A stretch of 64,000 nt of DNA from Anaerolineaceae bacterium (GTDB lineage: Bacteria > Chloroflexota > Anaerolineae > Aggregatilineales > Phototrophicaceae): contig WGMX01000006.1 of NCBI GenBank assembly GCA_016124855.1, positions 1-64,000 of the forward strand. The letters run 5' to 3'. A program made the position numbers and the translations under genes. The notes under the pieces are model-generated. The model had not been told where the DNA came from. It saw nothing but the letters and a program-made list of their open reading frames with translations, and did not search any database. Of the stretch, positions 16,277 to 30,953 are shown piece by piece. Positions within the stretch are counted from its first letter, which is position 1. Every line of letters begins with the position of its first letter.

Positions 16277-16792
16277 TTAATAATCCACCGTTGCTATGAG
16301 CTTTGTTACACCTCGCCATACTGCCCAGCGAAACATGATATAGAAAAGCAAGATACCAATGACGAGCCAAGGAATAACGTTCAATACACCACTCGTTTTG
16401 GGTGAATCGATGGGTACAGACAGGACATAAGACGATAGAAACGGCAAAACGAGGAATATGCATCCCACAACAAGGAATGCAATCGTAATCCCATAGAAGC
16501 TTAAATCGAATTCGGATAAACCCACAAATAAGGTGGATGTGGCCGTTATTTTCTGAACCGTTCCTTTTACTGTTGCCATATCGAGAACCATTGTGAACGA
16601 CGATACTTCATCCTCAAAATCTAATGTCAGGCTTGGTCGCCATCTCCTATTATCAACAGGTTGTGCTTGAAACTCAGTCTGCAATTGCTGTAAGCGCCCG
16701 ATGCAATCTTCATATGAATAAGGCACACTGAACTCGAATTGCTGCAAGTTCCATGTGTGGCGGTTGATAATCATTTTGTGTTTGCGGTGCAT
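16277..16792 (-). CDS. membrane protein, paralogue of the upstream gene
   Basis: A 171-residue protein with a cytoplasmic-like N-terminal alpha/beta domain (FEFSVPYSYEDCIGRLQQL to KGTVQKITAT, about 18-88) followed by two hydrophobic helices (about 101-125 and 137-160). It has the same order of elements as the gene at 16811. AGGAAA lies upstream of ATG 16792 and the gap to its neighbour is 18 bp, so they are a tandem pair in one operon. No family recognised. Confidence 0.72.
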   Translation of the reverse strand: MHRKHKMIINRHTWNLQQFEFSVPYSYEDCIGRLQQLQTEFQAQPVDNRRWRPSLTLDFEDEVSSFTMVLDMATVKGTVQKITATSTLFVGLSEFDLSFYGITIAFLVVGCIFLVLPFLSSYVLSVPIDSPKTSGVLNVIPWLVIGILLFYIMFRWAVWRGVTKLIATVDY

Positions 16793-16810
16793 GGCTGTTT
16801 CCTGTGAAGA

Positions 16811-17323
16811 TTAATTGGCCTTACCTGTTTCAGAAAATGTGTCATGAATAAGATTTTCCAGTCGCTGATAGTCGCCATAATCACGGATAACGTAAAAAAG
16901 CACAAAAGCGAACCACAGAATATAAAAAACCAAATAACTCCAAAAAAGATCACTCCTGAGAACAATCAAAACAAGTGGAACTAGAAACGAGATAGGTTTT
17001 GCTAAAAAATGGAGGCCAAAGCGTATATTGCCATTGACAATAGTTCTCGCTGTTTTGTCAATTGTCGCTGTGATTGTTCCAGCTGCTTTGACTGCATTGT
17101 AAGTGCTGCCATTACGTCCATAGCGCTCAATACAAATCTCAAATCGAAAATGTCTTTCTTCTTTCGTTAGAAACACAGTTTGACTGATGGCGTTCACAAA
17201 ACCCGTTTTGGGTTGGGATAAACCACGTATAAGTTGTAAACAATCTTGTGGCGACATCTGAACCGTGTAACTAAATGACTTTCTCATCAAAAGTAAATTG
17301 AAAAGACGCTTTAAAAAATCCAT
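16811..17323 (-). CDS. membrane protein, first of a tandem pair
   Basis: A 170-residue protein. The N-terminal domain (FSYTVQMSPQDCLQLIRGLS to AAGTITATIDK) matches the downstream paralogue's S-x-x-DC-x-x-x-L and GT-x-x-x-I-x-A lines. Two membrane helices follow (about 105-125, 128-145) and a charged tail. AGGA lies 9 bases from ATG 17323. It heads a two-gene unit with 16277-16792. Function unknown. Confidence 0.72.
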   Translation of the reverse strand: MDFLKRLFNLLLMRKSFSYTVQMSPQDCLQLIRGLSQPKTGFVNAISQTVFLTKEERHFRFEICIERYGRNGSTYNAVKAAGTITATIDKTARTIVNGNIRFGLHFLAKPISFLVPLVLIVLRSDLFWSYLVFYILWFAFVLFYVIRDYGDYQRLENLIHDTFSETGKAN

Positions 17324-17439: not shown

Positions 17440-19722
17440 CTACTGAGCCGTTACCTCGTAGGCCACACCCTCAACCACCGCGATGACCTTGTCACCGATG
17501 GCGAAGTAAGGCGCGAGTGCAGGTGTCTTATCCAGCAGCGCGAAGTATTCGTCACTCAGGAAGACCACCTTTTGTGTCTGCATCGTGTCCGGCTGGAAGG
17601 CCGTATCCGTCCAAACCCCATTCTGTAGGATGAAGGTCTTATCGCCAACGGTTTGGATCGGATTGACCGCAGGTTCAGCCGGAGCTACGGCTTCGCCACC
17701 AACTGTTTGTGCTGACAAAGTCCCTGTAGGCATGGCGGTCGCCATCGCATTCAATTGTACCGGAGCAGACGCGTTCGCCATGCCTGCGCTGGTGTCGGCA
17801 GCGCTCACAGCGGCGGAACCTGTTTTATCAGTGGCGAGTGTTTGTGCTTCTTGTTCGAACGCCGCCTGCGCCCGATCACGTCCATCGGCTGTAAGAATAT
17901 CGTTCTCGGTGATCAAGAAGCTGGTGTAAGGCGTAATGATGCCGTAACGCACACTCAGGCTGACAACACTGTCAATCAGTTCTTTATTTTCACCATTCAA
18001 ACGGATGCTGTTCAACAGATCACCGATGCGGCGGGTTGCCCACAGCCGCGCAATGAACGAGTCGCCGCCTGCATGAGATGGGAAATTCAAGTTGCTGTAA
18101 ACAAAGGTTTGGTCTTCGCCATTCACCTTGCCCTTGAGGGTAAAGCTCAGGTTGCTCCCATCACCACGATAGCGTCCAACCAAGGTTAGCTGAGTACCGG
18201 CGAACAAGTCCGGCAGCGGTGTAGTAGGGTACACATCACCGGTATTCAAACCGCCCATATCCAGCGTGATGTCCGTCAAAACGGGTGCGCTGATCTTGTT
18301 GTATAAACTGGCCACTTCCTCATCAATGCGTTCGGTCGGACGGACATAGGTTCCCGTGCCATGCTGATCACGCACAATCGAGTCCAGCAGCAAAGTATCA
18401 ACATCATCGCCCACACCGAAGCTAAAGACACGCACATTCGGACGCGCAGCGGCTTTCAAGTTCGCCAGAATTTGTGACGAGTCGGTCGTGCCTTCGGTAG
18501 CAAGGCCATCGGTCATAAACAGTACGGTCGTCGGACGTTCTTTATCCGCCATATTGAAGGCGGTCGTTAGCGCACCGTTGATGTCTGTGCCGCCAACGGC
18601 TTCCTGTCCACGTACCCAATCTATCGCGGATTGTGATTGAGCCGGTGATTCCATATTGTTGCTAAAAACGCGCCAACCGGTGCTGAACAAGATCACATTA
18701 AAGCGGTCATTGGGATTGAGCTTCTTCAACACATATTCAGCAGCGTTGCGTGCTTGATCCCACTTGTCGCCAAACATGCTGCCTGATTGGTCCAGCACAA
18801 TAATGACGTCCTTAGCAATAGCTTGATTTTCGGGCAGCGTCAGCGGCGGCTGCACCAACAGCATGAAGAAGCCGTCTTCATTGGCGCTTTCACGGTAGGT
18901 GAGCAAGTTAGCATTAATAGTCTGCGTTGAAATGCCGTAGTATAAACTGAAATTGTCACTTGGAATGCTGCCAGCCGATTCGTATCCAACTGTGAACTTT
19001 TTATCGCCATTGCGACTGATGGCAATCGGGTGGCTGGGTGAATAGACGTTGCTGATGGGATCATTGCTATCCACTTCCACCCGCACGCTCATTTTTTCGA
19101 CGGGATTTTTGGACAGTAGATTAGTGACCTTCAGTGGATAAACGAAGTGCAGCAAACCATTATCGACCGTCAGCACCTGCGAATACTGGATGTTGATCTT
19201 GCGGCTTTCCCCCGGTGGAATCGGGAACACGTTGGCTTGAATAGCGCTGTCACCGACGTATTCCAGCAAAGCAGGATCACGATATTGACGCACGATTTCG
19301 TTGTAAACACTGCGGGCTTCGTCTGCCTTTAGAATCTTGGCCTCAATGACTTGACCATTGATGGTCATCGTCAGCTTATCGACCGAGGCACTGTTGGGCA
19401 GAGGGAACATGAATGTCCCTTCCGCCATTCCGTTGCCTTCGTTGCGGAATTCCATCTCGACGTTGGTGGTAGCAATCTGGTCTTTGATATTGACCGTCAC
19501 CTGATGATGGTCAATTCGCAGCCATTCAGGATTGGTGAACACACCCGGTTGTCTCGGCGGACAGGGTGGTACTGTGGGACATGTACCCGTTGTTGGACAC
19601 AATGGCGGTGGTGGGCATGTCGGTTCCTGTGCAGCCGCAGGCAGGACAATGGCTAATAACAGCAATAGAAATGCAGCGGCGACTGGTATCGGTTTAAAGT
19701 GGGGTCTAACTAGGCGCTTCAT
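17440..19722 (-). CDS. secreted VIT and von Willebrand factor A domain protein
   Basis: About 760 residues, resembling inter-alpha-trypsin-inhibitor heavy chains. A signal peptide (to about residue 32, AAAQ) is followed by a Cys/Pro-rich stretch, PTCPPPPLCPTTGTCP. The VIT domain is about 65-200 (VNIKDQIATTNVEMEF; FPIPPGESRKINIQY). The vWA domain is about 305-480 with an intact metal-binding MIDAS DQSGSM (312-317) and FMTDG. The remainder is beta-rich and Ala/Thr-rich. GGAGG precedes the start. Exported or surface-bound, probably an adhesion or metal-dependent binding protein; the partner is unknown. Confidence 0.93.
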   Translation of the reverse strand: MKRLVRPHFKPIPVAAAFLLLLLAIVLPAAAQEPTCPPPPLCPTTGTCPTVPPCPPRQPGVFTNPEWLRIDHHQVTVNIKDQIATTNVEMEFRNEGNGMAEGTFMFPLPNSASVDKLTMTINGQVIEAKILKADEARSVYNEIVRQYRDPALLEYVGDSAIQANVFPIPPGESRKINIQYSQVLTVDNGLLHFVYPLKVTNLLSKNPVEKMSVRVEVDSNDPISNVYSPSHPIAISRNGDKKFTVGYESAGSIPSDNFSLYYGISTQTINANLLTYRESANEDGFFMLLVQPPLTLPENQAIAKDVIIVLDQSGSMFGDKWDQARNAAEYVLKKLNPNDRFNVILFSTGWRVFSNNMESPAQSQSAIDWVRGQEAVGGTDINGALTTAFNMADKERPTTVLFMTDGLATEGTTDSSQILANLKAAARPNVRVFSFGVGDDVDTLLLDSIVRDQHGTGTYVRPTERIDEEVASLYNKISAPVLTDITLDMGGLNTGDVYPTTPLPDLFAGTQLTLVGRYRGDGSNLSFTLKGKVNGEDQTFVYSNLNFPSHAGGDSFIARLWATRRIGDLLNSIRLNGENKELIDSVVSLSVRYGIITPYTSFLITENDILTADGRDRAQAAFEQEAQTLATDKTGSAAVSAADTSAGMANASAPVQLNAMATAMPTGTLSAQTVGGEAVAPAEPAVNPIQTVGDKTFILQNGVWTDTAFQPDTMQTQKVVFLSDEYFALLDKTPALAPYFAIGDKVIAVVEGVAYEVTAQ

Positions 19723-19806
19723 CATAATGCCTCCAGAACTAACTTGACTATTACATTCTGGAGGCTAAGACGTAAACGGTGCGGATTTAGTTCCGTTATA
19801 CAGTGG

Positions 19807-21132
19807 TCAATCTTGAACTTCGATGACACTATCTGCGAAAACTTCATCAAACGTTTTCACCGCAAATGGCAGTTCTGTCTCAGAAAAAACGCAGAGGTGA
19901 ATATCAGTCAGAGCAAGATCAGTATTAGCTTTATTCGCTTGGACAAAATTCCTAAAGGCTATAGCCATTGGTTCAATGACATCGAATGCGGATCTCCCGG
20001 CATGGCCAGCACCAAAAATAGGGAAGATGATACTTTTGATTTTATCGTATTGGGCTGCATCATCTTGCTGTGCTGCATATCTCGGATTATTTTCTGTCCA
20101 AATAACTCCGTTTTGCGCATCAATCTCAGAAATTAACTTGAGGCAATTCTGAACGGCTCTTTGCAGCCCATCATCCGTTTCAATTGGCACTAAAGTTTCA
20201 TTTCGAGTAATTGCATCAACCCGTACAGTGGCGGCGTGAAAAATGTAACGCGCTTTATTGGTCATGCGCAAAACACTTTGCGGATGACCTGCCGTAGTTG
20301 GTATAACCTGTCCCATAGCAATTGGCCGGCCACAAAAATCTGAATATCGAATTTGATCGTCAAGTTCATCTTGGACGGTATCTTCGCGGATACGTCCTTT
20401 AACAATATGTGAGCCTTCGCGCCTTAATGCCGAAGAGAGCGTAGCCCTTTCATATATACGAGCCATTTGCATGTAGTCGTTTTCAGTGTTTACCAAAACA
20501 TCAATATTACGCAGCTTAGTAATGTCACCAGTAGCAATATGTATGTTGAATGGTGTTCCAGCAATCGGGTATTGTTTAAAGCTTTCTAGATCTTTAGCTT
20601 TTGTAACTCGCCTACGCAATTCAAGCTGTTTCATCCACGATTTTTGATTGTCGCGGGTACGCTTGGTAAGATTTTCAATAAGCTTGACTAAGTTTTCGAA
20701 GAGCTTTGGATTTTCTTGAGCATCGTCATCGGTATAGCGAAAATATTGTGTATCCGAAATCCCTAACGCAGACTGTACGCCACTAATATCTTCATTTGGA
20801 GCGGTCAGCACAACAGGCAGTATCGAAATATTGCCACCGCGAGCCGTATTAACTTCACGCTTTACCCATTCAGACGCCGTATCCTTCTCGACGATTAGCA
20901 GCAAAATATCACTTTCACGGAGTTCGTCATATATTTTGGCTTCCCATTGGTCGCCACCTTCTAAACTAAATATATCTAAAAAGCATCCATACTCATTTAT
21001 TTCGTCAAGCCTAGCTTGGAGTTTTTTTGCTTGTTGGTTACTAAATTGAGCATTTCGATGACTAATGAATATTCTTGTCTTTGTTTTTTTCTTTGGCTCA
21101 TTTTCTTCTTTTTTGGTGGTTTTAGTACCCAT
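19807..21132 (-). CDS. TIR-macro domain fusion protein, candidate NAD-based immune protein
   Basis: A 441-residue protein. After a Lys-rich tail (1-18) comes a TIR domain (about 18-155): TRIFISHRNAQFS, FSLEGGDQW, SDILLLIVEKDTASEW, and EWVKREVNTA, whose Glu93 aligns with the catalytic Glu of NAD-cleaving TIRs. A linker helix (about 155-190) leads to a macro domain (about 195-430) with IATGDITK, VLVNTEND where macro domains usually have VNAAN, RYIFHAAT, and the phosphate loop IFPIFGAGHAGR (370-380). ATG 21132 is chosen because GAGGGG lies 4 bases upstream; the ATG at 21183 would add 17 residues. TIRs yield ADP-ribose derivatives from NAD and macro domains bind them, so product sensing in one chain is inferred. 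Domain calls are firm; function is not. Confidence 0.85.
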   Translation of the reverse strand: MGTKTTKKEENEPKKKTKTRIFISHRNAQFSNQQAKKLQARLDEINEYGCFLDIFSLEGGDQWEAKIYDELRESDILLLIVEKDTASEWVKREVNTARGGNISILPVVLTAPNEDISGVQSALGISDTQYFRYTDDDAQENPKLFENLVKLIENLTKRTRDNQKSWMKQLELRRRVTKAKDLESFKQYPIAGTPFNIHIATGDITKLRNIDVLVNTENDYMQMARIYERATLSSALRREGSHIVKGRIREDTVQDELDDQIRYSDFCGRPIAMGQVIPTTAGHPQSVLRMTNKARYIFHAATVRVDAITRNETLVPIETDDGLQRAVQNCLKLISEIDAQNGVIWTENNPRYAAQQDDAAQYDKIKSIIFPIFGAGHAGRSAFDVIEPMAIAFRNFVQANKANTDLALTDIHLCVFSETELPFAVKTFDEVFADSVIEVQD

Positions 21133-21309
21133 TTTTCCCCTCAATCCTTCATTTATGCGCTTACTAAATAATAATATAAACATACTTACAAGATCATAAC
21201 ACCCCAGAAATGAGTGGTTGCGTTTACGGTATGCTAGGCGAGGTTGTGCTAGAATACCATCATAACGTTAGGATGATTGTGTTTTAATTCGCATTTGGGG
21301 AGTTACATC

Positions 21310-21915
21310 TTGCCAAAACAAGTCAAGATTATCAGCGAAAAACGTGTATTCGATAAGTTTTTCAAAATTGATGAAGCCCATTTACAACATGAACTGTACA
21401 ACGGCGAGATGAGTCCTGAATTGACGCGGCTCAACTTCGAGCGCGGCGACAGCGCGGCAGTAGTGCTGCACGATCCCATTTCGGATACGGTCATTATGAC
21501 CGAGCAGTTCCGCTATCCAGTTTACGCAAAAGACAAAGAGAAAGCATGGCTTCTCGAAATTCCAGCAGGCTCAATTGAAGAAAATGAAAATGCCGACCCC
21601 ACCATTACTTTGCGGCGCGAATTGATGGAAGAAATCGGTTACAGTGTCAACAGCTTTCGTAAAATCGCCTCCTTTTTTGTGTCACCCGGCGGTACATCGG
21701 AACGCATACATCTTTTTTATTCGAGCATCACCAGCAAAAGTAAAATTTCTTCAGGCGGTGGATTGGTGAGTGAAGGCGAAGATGTGCGTACCGTGTCTAT
21801 TGGTGTCCAAGCAGCGCTGTATAAAATCACCACTGGCGAGATCATGGATGCCAAAACCATTATCGGCCTCCAATGGTTGCAGTTGAACCGCCAGAATTTG
21901 GTTCCGGGACGCTAA
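21310..21915 (+). CDS. Nudix hydrolase, ADP-ribose/nucleotide-sugar pyrophosphatase type
   Basis: About 201 residues. The Nudix box begins at AGSIEENEN and ends RRELMEEIGY. It has nine instead of seven residues between the first Glu and REUxEE, a two-residue expansion. FVSPGGTSERIHLFY after it is typical of ADP-ribose and GDP-mannose pyrophosphatases, and EQFRYPVY gives the N-terminal strand. TTG 21310 is chosen: GGGGAG lies 7 bases upstream and the protein core begins there; no ATG fits. It is divergent from the TIR-macro gene. It hydrolyses an NDP-sugar to NMP plus sugar phosphate. Confidence 0.9.
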   Translation: MPKQVKIISEKRVFDKFFKIDEAHLQHELYNGEMSPELTRLNFERGDSAAVVLHDPISDTVIMTEQFRYPVYAKDKEKAWLLEIPAGSIEENENADPTITLRRELMEEIGYSVNSFRKIASFFVSPGGTSERIHLFYSSITSKSKISSGGGLVSEGEDVRTVSIGVQAALYKITTGEIMDAKTIIGLQWLQLNRQNLVPGR

Positions 21916-23196: not shown

Positions 23197-24774
23197 CTAT
23201 ATAATTAAAGCGCTTGCTGCACTGGCAAGCATTTGTGAGCGCTCACTTACAAAAACAGCAAAATTATCAGCAAACACCATTGGGGGGCAAAAAGATAACT
23301 GTAAAATTTCATTTACGTCATTAGGCATTTTCAGTCGATATTGACTGGGCGCAACACCGCCAAGTTGAACATTATCTTGCTTCGACATAAAACAAAAGTT
23401 TGCAAGACAATTAGGATTGGGGGTAAAGATTTTGTTTGAATCCAGATAGTCTCTAGGGTAGATATGATGGAATTCATTGCGATTATATACTTTCAAAACA
23501 TCACGCAAAACTATCCTTACTCCGCTGATAAAACTCCGAGGTTTTTGTTGAGCAAGCAAAAGAATGAAGGTCTTAGTATTAACTGTTCCAATTCTGAATG
23601 TGTTAACACTAAAAAAATCAGGAGTCACAGAAGCAGAAAAATCGCCTAATGTTGTTGGATCCGCTGCATTTTTTCGTTTAAGCTTCAACACCTCGGCAAT
23701 ATCTGTCCTTAAATTGCGGAGAATTCCCCCACTGTATCGCTTTGAAAAACAACATCTCCAAAACCACCGTATTAAAACGCGTCTATCGTCATCAGTGTAT
23801 TGAACATGCTGATTACCAAGAGCAGCAAAAAACACAGTTAATGGTACTAATATTCCCGGATAAGGCAGGCTATCCAATGAATAAACTTCTAGATTAGTTT
23901 GTAAGAAATCAATAGCTCCTTTAACTCCGTTTACCACTTCCTGAAATCGTCTCCTCACTTCTGACCCTCGAATATTGACCAAACTGCTTGCCGAGGCATC
24001 TGCAACTAAAACGCCAGCGCAACATCGTAGCAGCAAATCCGTATCCATTCCAACGTCTTCAAAACCAAATGGCACAAGTTCGTCTTTCAAATCTTCGAAT
24101 TGACCTTGGAGTTGAAAATCATCACTCCAAGTCCAAGCTGAAAGCAGTTGTAGAGTATCTAACGGAACTCCCTTCCTATTTACCCGTTCAAAGACTAATG
24201 CCACAGTAGCTTTGTCATCCGTCGTTACATACTCTACAGGAATACGTGCCTCTTTGAATTTAGTCTGCATCTCATCAATACGCTTAAGAGTTTCATCATC
24301 GAAGCTCTGGGTTGCTCTACGATATTTCACAGTATCAAAAAGGGAATTTAGAGGGAAATAACGACTAAGATCAACACCTTCAGGTTCGAGAGCAAAAAAT
24401 TGCGATTCCTGAGCATCAGGATCAGCTTGAAAATCAAAATATATATTCGTCCAAATTTCTGGTAATGATTGATCCAATTCCGTTTGGAACACACCAAATA
24501 ATGATGTGATTCTTTGTTGACCGTCCAAAACATAATCAATTGGATAATCTGGATCGGTTCTTGGCAGTTCAAAGGCACCAAGTGTTCGTTCAGAATTAAG
24601 TTGTTCCTTTGTCCTCCAGAGTAATAGATTTCCCACGGGGTATCTCTTAAATAAACTATCCATAAAAAAAGCTACAGTATCGGGATCCCAAACAAATCCA
24701 CGCTGAAAAGCAGGAATTCGAATTTGCCCTCTAGTAACATCATGAATGATTTCGCGAATACTGAGTTCAGACAT
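23197..24774 (-). CDS. DUF262-HNH protein, GmrSD-like candidate nuclease
   Basis: A 525-residue protein. The N-terminal DUF262 domain shows IRIPAFQRGFVW (18-29), the signature DGQQR (84-88) and FERVNRKGVPL (195-205). The C-terminal part has an HNH-type (DUF1524-like) block: NEFHHIYPRDYLDS (433-446) then NCLANFCFMSKQDN (455-468). Families with this architecture include GmrSD type IV restriction enzymes and SspE, which act on modified DNA or sense phosphorothioation. No partner modification genes are next to it. DNA here is AT-richer than average. Antiphage role is inferred from the family. Confidence 0.85.
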   Translation of the reverse strand: MSELSIREIIHDVTRGQIRIPAFQRGFVWDPDTVAFFMDSLFKRYPVGNLLLWRTKEQLNSERTLGAFELPRTDPDYPIDYVLDGQQRITSLFGVFQTELDQSLPEIWTNIYFDFQADPDAQESQFFALEPEGVDLSRYFPLNSLFDTVKYRRATQSFDDETLKRIDEMQTKFKEARIPVEYVTTDDKATVALVFERVNRKGVPLDTLQLLSAWTWSDDFQLQGQFEDLKDELVPFGFEDVGMDTDLLLRCCAGVLVADASASSLVNIRGSEVRRRFQEVVNGVKGAIDFLQTNLEVYSLDSLPYPGILVPLTVFFAALGNQHVQYTDDDRRVLIRWFWRCCFSKRYSGGILRNLRTDIAEVLKLKRKNAADPTTLGDFSASVTPDFFSVNTFRIGTVNTKTFILLLAQQKPRSFISGVRIVLRDVLKVYNRNEFHHIYPRDYLDSNKIFTPNPNCLANFCFMSKQDNVQLGGVAPSQYRLKMPNDVNEILQLSFCPPMVFADNFAVFVSERSQMLASAASALII

Positions 24775-29169: not shown

Positions 29170-29562
29170 ATGACCGAAAAAAGCACAAACAGTGGACGCT
29201 GGAAGGCCGGACAAAGTGGCAATCCGAGAGGACGTGCGCCTGCCAGCCGTGCGATCAGTGAAATGCTGCGACTCAAGGGCGAGGAAACGGTGGTTGTAGG
29301 CGGGCAAGCGCTTACGGCTCAAGAGGCGTTGGCGGAGGCCATCTGGCGATTCGTGTTGAAGGGTGATGTGCGGTTGGGGTCAAAGCATCTCAAGGCGGAG
29401 TCAGTTGGGGATTGGGTGCAGGCAGTGAAGTGGCTTTACACGTATGTCGATCCGCCACGCGCGACGACGACTAAGGACGAACCTGAGGTGGTGGTGCGAG
29501 TGGTGAGGGTGAATATGAATAGTACCGAGTCACGAGTGCCGAGTACCGAGGAAGAAATCTAA
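29170..29562 (+). CDS. DUF5681-like protein, possible terminase small-subunit partner
   Basis: 130 residues. RWKAGQSGNPRGRAPASR (about 11-28) is the DUF5681 signature found upstream of phage terminase large subunits. The middle is helical. The C-terminal residues NSTESRVPSTEEEI are encoded by an intergenic-type repeat of the GTACCGAGTACCGAG class (29520-29560), so the original C-terminus has probably been altered. It precedes the terminase gene by 158 bp filled with hairpin repeats. A DNA-recognition role is inferred from position. Confidence 0.7.
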   Translation: MTEKSTNSGRWKAGQSGNPRGRAPASRAISEMLRLKGEETVVVGGQALTAQEALAEAIWRFVLKGDVRLGSKHLKAESVGDWVQAVKWLYTYVDPPRATTTKDEPEVVVRVVRVNMNSTESRVPSTEEEI

Positions 29563-29570
29563 AACCCTCA

Positions 29571-29702
29571 CCCTTAGTCCCTCTCCCTCAGGGCGAGGGA
29601 GACCAGAGACCCCCACCTTAATCCTCCCCCGTAGTAACAGGGGAGGAAAATAAGAACCTCACCCCCTAGCCCCCTCTCCGTGTACAGAGAGGGGGAATAA
29701 GA
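29571..29702. repeat. cluster of three C/G-rich hairpin repeats
   Basis: Three successive units: CCCTCTCC / GGGCGAGGGAGA near 29577-29602, CCTCCCCC / GGGGAGG at 29623-29646, and CCCCTCTCC / GAGAGGGGG near 29670-29697. The middle type recurs at 30969-30992 and a relative at 55938-55960. Confidence 0.7.
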
Positions 29703-29720
29703 GAAGATAGGATTGTGTGA

Positions 29721-30953
29721 ATGATTGAAATTCAGTTGGCGGCGTTACATGAGGGGCAGCAGGCGATTGTTGATTCGGCGGCGCGGTTTAAAGTGCTGGC
29801 GTGTGGGCGGCGATTTGGCAAGACGCTGGTGGCGCTGGATATGCTGACCAACCGCTTATTGGATGGGCAGAATGTGGCGTACTTCGCGCCGACTTACCGG
29901 ATGGGCGCGGAAGTCTGGCGGGAGTTGAAGCAGAATTTGCATCCGCTGATTCGGACGATGAACGAGCATGAGTGGCGGATGGAGTTGTATACGGGCGGGG
30001 TGTTGGAGTGCTGGTCATTGGCGAACCAAGCAGCAGAAACGGTGCGCGGACGCAAATATCATTTTGTGGTGATGGATGAGGCGGCATTGTTTGATTCGGC
30101 GGAAGTTTGGCACGGGGCGATCCGTCCGCTGCTGACGGATTATGAAGGCGGGGCGCTGTTCGCCAGCACTCCACGTGGGCGAAATTGGTTCTGGCATTTG
30201 TATCTGCAAGGGATGAGTGCGGGGTTTCCTGAGTGGGAAAGTTGGAGTTTGCCAACGGCGGCGAATCCGCATATTAAGACGACGGAGATTGAAGCGGCAC
30301 GGTCAGGGATGCCAGAGCGGTTCTATAAACAGGAATACGAGGCGGTGTTTCTGGATGATGGCGGGGTGGTGTTTCGGAATGTGGAACGGGTTTGCGTAGG
30401 GGAAAATGCAATTGAACCGCCAAGTCGCCAAGAACGCCAAGAAGAGGAAATACAGAGGTATGAGGGGTGTTATTTTGGGGTGGATTGGGGGAAGGACAAT
30501 GATTATACGTGTGTGTCGGTGATGACGCGGGATGGGCGGCAGATTCATTTGGAGCGATTCAATCAGATCGGTTGGGCGGTGCAACGGGGTCGGCTAGCGG
30601 CGTTATATGAACAGTTCAAGCCGAGAATCATTTTGGCGGAGGAGAACAGCATCGGGAGTGTGAATATTGAGGCGCTGCAAGCCGAGGGTTTGCCGGTGAC
30701 CGGATTCACCACGACGAGCAAGAGCAAAACGCCATTGATTGATGGGTTGGCACTGGCGATGGAGCGGGAAGAAGTTGTGCTGCTGAATGATCCAGTGTTG
30801 AAGCATGAACTCACGGCTTACGAGATGAAGCGGACGAGTACGGGGTGGTCATACAGTGCGCCTAGTGGCAGTCATGATGATACGGTGATTGCGACGGCGC
30901 TTAGTTTATGGGCGAGCAAGTGGTATGGGGGTGAGATGATTTCGTTTGTTTAG
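29721..30953 (+). CDS. orphan phage terminase large subunit
   Basis: A 410-residue packaging motor/nuclease. The ATPase has CGRRFGKT (Walker A), VVMDEAAL (Walker B) and LFASTPRGRNWF (coupling motif). The RNase H-like nuclease keeps GVDWGKDNDYT (first Asp), ILAEENS (Glu) and GSHDDTVIA (last Asp). All catalytic positions look intact. The segment PPSRQERQEEEIQ is encoded by an intergenic-type repeat (30416-30456) inserted in frame between the two domains. AGGA lies 8 bases upstream. No portal, capsid or tail genes follow, so it is a prophage remnant or a domesticated pair with the DUF5681 gene. Confidence 0.9.
   Translation: MIEIQLAALHEGQQAIVDSAARFKVLACGRRFGKTLVALDMLTNRLLDGQNVAYFAPTYRMGAEVWRELKQNLHPLIRTMNEHEWRMELYTGGVLECWSLANQAAETVRGRKYHFVVMDEAALFDSAEVWHGAIRPLLTDYEGGALFASTPRGRNWFWHLYLQGMSAGFPEWESWSLPTAANPHIKTTEIEAARSGMPERFYKQEYEAVFLDDGGVVFRNVERVCVGENAIEPPSRQERQEEEIQRYEGCYFGVDWGKDNDYTCVSVMTRDGRQIHLERFNQIGWAVQRGRLAALYEQFKPRIILAEENSIGSVNIEALQAEGLPVTGFTTTSKSKTPLIDGLALAMEREEVVLLNDPVLKHELTAYEMKRTSTGWSYSAPSGSHDDTVIATALSLWASKWYGGEMISFV

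Follow-up and report, generated by a model that had tools for sequence, protein, structure and literature searches.

In a 64,000-nucleotide stretch of DNA from an Anaerolineaceae bacterium of the phylum Chloroflexota (the whole stretch is called the window here), we identified a gene that joins a TIR domain and a macro domain in one chain and, directly beside it, a gene for a Nudix hydrolase of the ADP-ribose-pyrophosphatase type. We propose, with a probability of roughly 45%, that the two form a nucleotide-gated switch, a proposal that builds on observed fold and family assignments, residue conservation, gene adjacency and exchange of the N-terminal part. The macro domain would sense a small ADP-ribose-type nucleotide; binding of this ligand would bring the N-terminal TIR domains together and turn on NAD+ cleavage, which would lead to cell arrest or death. 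The Nudix enzyme would hydrolyse the diphosphate bond of the ligand and act as both brake and reset, and the switch would amplify itself above a Nudix-set threshold, because TIR cleavage releases ADP-ribose products. In related loci, a TIR-like domain or membrane helices replace the TIR domain, and the macro domain and, mostly, the Nudix gene are the parts that stay.

We assign the role of brake to the Nudix enzyme, which would clear the macro ligand, and that of NAD+-cleaving effector to the TIR domain because Nudix enzymes in general cleave ADP-ribose (to AMP and ribose phosphate, in excerpts of PMC9503650), because ThsA macro domains bind ADP-ribose (ADPR) and oligomerize on ligand, with no deacetylase or glycohydrolase activity (excerpts of PMC11204291), and because the macro domain described here lacks the glycine-rich catalytic loop.

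A conserved TIR–macro protein

The TIR–macro gene (19807–21132, minus strand) opens with an ATG at 21132, has GAGGGG upstream of this start and encodes 441 amino acids. Its TIR domain (residues 19–160; 20653–21078, minus strand) passes the Pfam TIR_2 cut-off (59 versus 28 bits), and this assignment is supported by a SARM1 profile match and by the strand and helix order of the predicted model, in which the two alternate; TIR_2 also matches all 23 aligned family members. A sequence-only reading of this DNA had placed Glu93 in the expected catalytic helix, and this holds: the residue is the glutamate of a WxxxE stretch (WVKRE; codon 20854–20856, minus strand) that aligns on WVHKE of SARM1, lies within helix 88–99 of the model and is kept in 25 of 25 TIR–macro sequences, with W89 kept in 24. 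The TIR domain is a putative NADase. Hydropathy gave no membrane segment in the window protein.

Residues 187–433 (19834–20574, minus strand) have the macro fold, and matches of the predicted model to solved structures cover residues 180–435. Profile searches bore out the TIR part of the two-domain assignment but fell short on the macro part, for which the window protein scores 12.5 bits against a Pfam PF01661 cut-off of 22; at E ≤ 0.1, 12 of the 23 members match this family (best 1.1e-7). Residues E217, N218, Q222, M223, R225, R237, D251, T279, H299 and G376 are kept in 29 of 29 macro sequences, that is, in the 25 TIR–macro proteins and in four proteins with other N-termini that are described below. 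The first five lie in the signature NTENDYMQMAR (residues 215–225; 20458–20490, minus strand) and G376 lies in the phosphate loop FGAGHAGR (residues 373–380; 19993–20016, minus strand).

In MacroD-type macro domains, the NAAN motif and a glycine-rich loop have catalytic roles. These hallmarks of hydrolytic MacroD proteins are missing here, and a stretch resembling N[TSP]ENxxMQMxR stands in their place. Because the glycine-rich loop is absent, ligand binding is the likelier role of the macro domain, and the earlier suggestion that it may bind rather than hydrolyse is plausible from its sequence; an enzymatic role is possible, given the kept Glu217. The closest solved macro domains are those of PARP14 and PARP15 by sequence and of MacroD-type proteins, AF1521 and macroH2A by structure, several of which meet protein-linked ADPR. 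Such neighbours would suit a macro domain that reads the ADP-ribosylation of host molecules by phage or rival toxins, with the TIR domain as a suicide effector and the Nudix enzyme clearing away free ADPR, which would otherwise mask the macro domain or set it off falsely. We regard this as very unlikely: no ADP-ribosyltransferase was noticed beside the gene, and the data do not single out a protein-linked ligand.

Relatives that span both domains occur at 23 loci in 22 of 101 genomes (the window's own and 100 relatives); 21 of these genomes belong to the window's family, and G096 belongs to another family of the same order. Within the window's family, the macro variant is present in 23 of 98 genomes, two of them new (G466 and G469); its open frames range from 408 to 533 residues, and the TIR domain precedes the macro domain in all of the window-family frames read, giving 25 TIR–macro loci in total. 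The one-chain fusion noticed by the sequence-only reading is thus upheld by the TIR_2 score, the macro fold and a conserved family of homologues.

Peptide patterns found six named records, from four Anaerolineae, one Chloroflexi and one Bacteroidetes metagenome bin. A profile of the family alignment (A1), applied at E ≤ 1e-30 to 396 genomes of the class, found 5 genomes, all in the window's family; as at most 4 candidates per genome were scored in this search, and at most 6 in the other searches of the phylum and class, absences in them carry little weight. We found no match to the TIR–macro protein by tblastn against plasmids and phages; of the searches of viral contigs, one gave a single TIR-only match and another no relative. 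TIR-part matches are numerous in relatives of the window genome, with up to 13 per genome, and TIR proteins look expanded there.

A Nudix gene beside the TIR–macro gene

The Nudix gene (21310–21915, plus strand) is divergent to the TIR–macro gene. Its frame is open from 21277, and a TTG at 21310, with GGGGAG upstream, is probably the start; the bounds of the intergenic region (21133–21309) use this position. One sigma-70-like match was found in 21050–21350, no more than expected by chance. The protein passes the TIGR00052 cut-off (143.5 versus 79.55 bits), matches ADP-ribose pyrophosphatase chains at 6e-37 to 1.2e-36 and, in the alignment, has the Nudix box and an SPGGTSER stretch, which place it by sequence in the same family as the ADP-ribose pyrophosphatases (1g0s family). 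It differs from these in scoring below the cut-off of the equivalog PRK10729 (ADP-ribose diphosphatase; 145.1 versus 248 bits), in two extra residues in the loop of the Nudix box and in its link to the TIR–macro gene. A second Nudix protein in the window's genome is 34% identical.

As called by six-frame profile search, this Nudix gene adjoins the TIR–macro gene in 15 of 24 assessable loci, 12 of them divergent, 2 convergent and 1 codirectional, and such a recurrent neighbour speaks against the one-gene system that had been suggested. The 24 loci are the 23 without G007a, which begins at a contig end, plus G466 and G469; the 22 judged in the first set include G010, on a short contig with flanks of 1.8 and 1.0 kilobases (kb). 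No Nudix gene was found within the 15–16 kb fetched near the TIR–macro genes of G466 and G469. A Nudix-like match 4 kb from the G016 TIR–macro gene was weak (50 bits) and was not counted; in the Nudix tree it sits at the end of a very long branch, in the part that holds the linked copies. This tree, built from the Nudix proteins of these genomes alone, separates the copies linked to all three N-terminal types, together with free and distal copies, from eight paralogues with 100/100 support. In the TIR–macro protein tree, support is good for 8 of 20 inner branches, and the arrangement classes, as a whole, cluster no more than expected by chance (10 changes versus a shuffled mean of 9.9); no order of events is therefore drawn from this tree.

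Both genes are present in 17 of the 101 genomes, TIR–macro alone in 5, this Nudix alone in 4 and neither in 75; outside the window's genus, the corresponding counts are 6, 1, 3 and 74. Weaker Nudix rows (E 5.9e-36 to 3.6e-31) were left out of the count; these are the sole match in G001, G012, G020 and G036 and a second match in G000, G003, G009 and G015. By eye, dnaX- and recR-like genes stand close to the Nudix gene in the distantly related genomes G008 (L077 6212–8568) and G451 (L111 1075–5453), possibly an old locus of this Nudix gene or a coincidence.

One macro variant behind different N-termini

Macro profile searches of overlapping sets of 400 genomes of the phylum, 47 of G655's class, 241 of G451's order and 396 of the window's class turned up four more loci with the macro variant NxENxxMQMxR, none of them in the window's family. 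The N-terminus is TIR-like in G451 and G1008 and consists of predicted membrane helices in G655 (three segments) and G112 (two segments); the proteins of G451, G655 and G1008 exceed the PF01661 cut-off. Pfam support for the TIR-like N-termini is weak, and they match the PADLOC model named Effector, TIR, which we take to be a CBASS effector model, at E 4.2e-6 (G451) and 2.5e-12 (G1008); a search of solved structures with the G451 N-terminus gave nothing of note. In three of the four loci (G451, G1008 and G655), the gene immediately upstream, in the same orientation, is a Nudix gene of the same family, which scores 219 to 248 bits against the profile of linked copies.

The macro part of the G655 protein alone had no match at 0.001, and the whole protein had none in phages. 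In plasmids its only matches were to distant macro proteins of Streptomyces, of which the one read differs in signature; the G451 macro part recovered these Streptomyces records again, plus an unannotated Fusobacterium record. On a Streptomyces clavuligerus plasmid (L109 4497–9962), a distant macro protein forms a run together with a RES NAD+ phosphorylase and a CHAT protein, after which comes a caspase-family gene on the opposite strand. The G112 membrane–macro gene (L133 5480–6559) lies between genes that, by eye, resemble nuoL and nuoM of respiratory complex I.

A constant macro domain behind an exchangeable N-terminus suggests a sensor with swappable effectors. The fusion of signal producer and sensor that had been read from the sequence is possible, but a sensor with an exchangeable effector fits better because this macro variant is also found behind TIR-like or membrane N-termini in other loci. 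The kept TIR glutamate, the macro fold and the fusion in 25 loci would also agree with a one-chain, Thoeris-like relay, in which infection prompts the TIR domain to produce an ADPR-type signal, a macro domain, in that chain or in one next to it, detects the signal and alters TIR activity, and the Nudix enzyme does no more than clean up. This relay is nonetheless unlikely, as a macro variant attached to membrane helices, in a chain that has no TIR domain, must draw its ligand from another source, and the window protein has no separate effector domain on which the signal could act. A Nudix enzyme that makes or trims the signal, for example by freeing the ligand from a larger dinucleotide, instead of destroying it, might likewise be expected to adjoin all three N-terminal types. 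That seems a long shot for a protein so close to ADPR pyrophosphatases, whose products are not expected as macro ligands, and for a gene missing beside one of the four other loci as well as from some TIR–macro loci.

Relation to known systems

Type II Thoeris (a ThsB TIR protein plus a transmembrane–macro ThsA) likewise has a TIR enzyme and a macro nucleotide sensor in one system, and the G655 and G112 proteins resemble ThsA in layout, including the N-terminal membrane helices that the window protein lacks. Here, however, TIR and macro domains share one chain, the partner is a Nudix gene, no separate thsB (TIR) gene is present among the tested neighbours (VIT-VWA, two small proteins, Nudix, SH3 protein, GmrSD-type and GNAT), and ThsA_Macro (PF20016) matches 0 of the 23 aligned members at E ≤ 0.1. 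Despite the likeness drawn earlier, the window protein, with no PF20016 match and no membrane segment, is not a ThsA. PF20016 matched the G451 protein at 0.0014, below its cut-off, and had no match in 61 relatives, but 14 control genomes were equally silent. ThcB4, the NCBIfam model of a type III Thoeris TIR protein, matches 23 of 23 members (best 1.3e-20), but its cut-off lies far above the score of the window protein (50.3 versus 220 bits). TIR-STING and TIR-SAVED effectors of CBASS carry an N-terminal TIR effector and a C-terminal nucleotide-binding sensor in one chain. The window protein shares this layout, but its sensor is a macro domain and the expected ligand would be of the ADPR type, not a cyclic oligonucleotide.

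Clover (excerpts of PMC12265719) and Panoptes (excerpts of PMC12657218) are similar in having a nucleotide-controlled effector and few genes, but their effectors are unrelated. In Clover, too, a partner enzyme controls the nucleotide; it makes an inhibitory nucleotide, whereas the Nudix enzyme would degrade one. In Arabidopsis, the Nudix hydrolase NUDT7 restrains TIR/EDS1-linked cell death (excerpts of PMC9153377), a likeness in the Nudix restraint of TIR-dependent death; this is a plant case, and the NUDT7 substrates given there are 2',3'-cAMP and 2',3'-cGMP. Among the matches listed from open-licence PubMed Central literature, available in excerpt, we found no description of a TIR–macro fusion or of a Nudix, macro and TIR arrangement, and none of ThcB together with Thoeris.

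Genomic neighbourhood

Downstream of the TIR–macro gene lies a VIT-VWA gene (17440–19725, minus strand), which we judged to be a bystander. It adjoins nine TIR–macro genes and lies ≤2.6 kb from two more; it was rejected as a functional partner because it is spread far more widely than TIR–macro (77 of 101 genomes, once per genome, with two matches in G087). In G024, G037, G038, G042 and G049, its best match is on another contig or about 190 kb away, and the Nudix gene still adjoins TIR–macro. A defence-like GmrSD/DUF262-type gene (23197–24774, minus strand), about 2 kb from the TIR–macro start, has as its closest PADLOC models the candidate PDC-M55C (E 3.3e-54) and HEC-05 (2.8e-27), and clustered with no gene of the other TIR–macro loci. 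At 16277–17323 (minus strand), two consecutive small proteins of 170 and 171 amino acids look membrane-like by eye; searches of Pfam, PADLOC and PHROGs gave no match for either one within the limits applied. Further away, a terminase large-subunit gene (29170–30953, plus strand; phrog_2, E 1.2e-39) is preceded by a small gene (phrog_26239, E 4.9e-6); by eye, there are no further structural phage genes among open reading frames of at least 170 amino acids up to 48 kb, and the terminase gene is an orphan phage remnant or a captured gene.

Several points weigh against the proposed switch. An adjacent Nudix gene is absent at 9 of the 24 assessable TIR–macro loci and within the 12.5 kb fetched at the G112 membrane–macro locus; four genomes have this Nudix without TIR–macro, and G011 and G096 carry it far from TIR–macro, with no TIR–macro gene in the stretches fetched around the Nudix in any of them. 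The association of the two genes (Fisher, 1.6e-11 overall and 1.4e-6 outside the genus) ignores shared descent, and the Nudix threshold (E ≤ 1.5e-46) was chosen after the list had been viewed. The kept set of E217, Q222, R225 and H299 could be catalytic, beyond binding. Few of the neighbours tested in the window are defence genes, so a role in defence is at most putative, and a gene present in 15 of the 17 genomes of the window's genus, with nine loci directly beside VIT-VWA, resembles a resident signalling gene more closely than it does a mobile defence system. Such residence, next to a widespread gene, would also fit a module for NAD and ADPR turnover outside immunity, in which the TIR domain cleaves NAD+, the macro domain binds or processes ADPR and the Nudix enzyme converts it to AMP and ribose phosphate; NAD or ADPR is what each of the three domain families acts on. 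We consider this quite unlikely, as the membrane–macro and TIR-like–macro versions are hard to fit and the distribution within the family is patchy (23 of 98 genomes).

Implications

For the nucleotide-gated switch, we infer the ligand, the NADase activity, the direction of control and any defence or stress role from the observations above. More broadly, and at rather less than even odds, these loci may represent an unnamed nucleotide-signalling module of Chloroflexota, comprising a Nudix ADP-ribose hydrolase and a macro sensor with an exchangeable effector (TIR NADase, TIR-like domain or membrane helices). The Nudix enzyme would keep the ligand below threshold, and loss of this control, for example on phage takeover, would fire the effector, a bacterial counterpart to the Nudix restraint of plant TIR immunity. 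If this is true, it would be a new layout of nucleotide-gated signalling in which two genes provide the sensor, the effector and the eraser for an ADP-ribose signal. It would allow a direct test of whether a Nudix enzyme sets the threshold of bacterial TIR signalling, in parallel with the Nudix restraint of TIR signalling in plants. The exchange of effectors on a constant macro domain would also offer a handle on the ligand, as the TIR, TIR-like and membrane versions should answer the same molecule.
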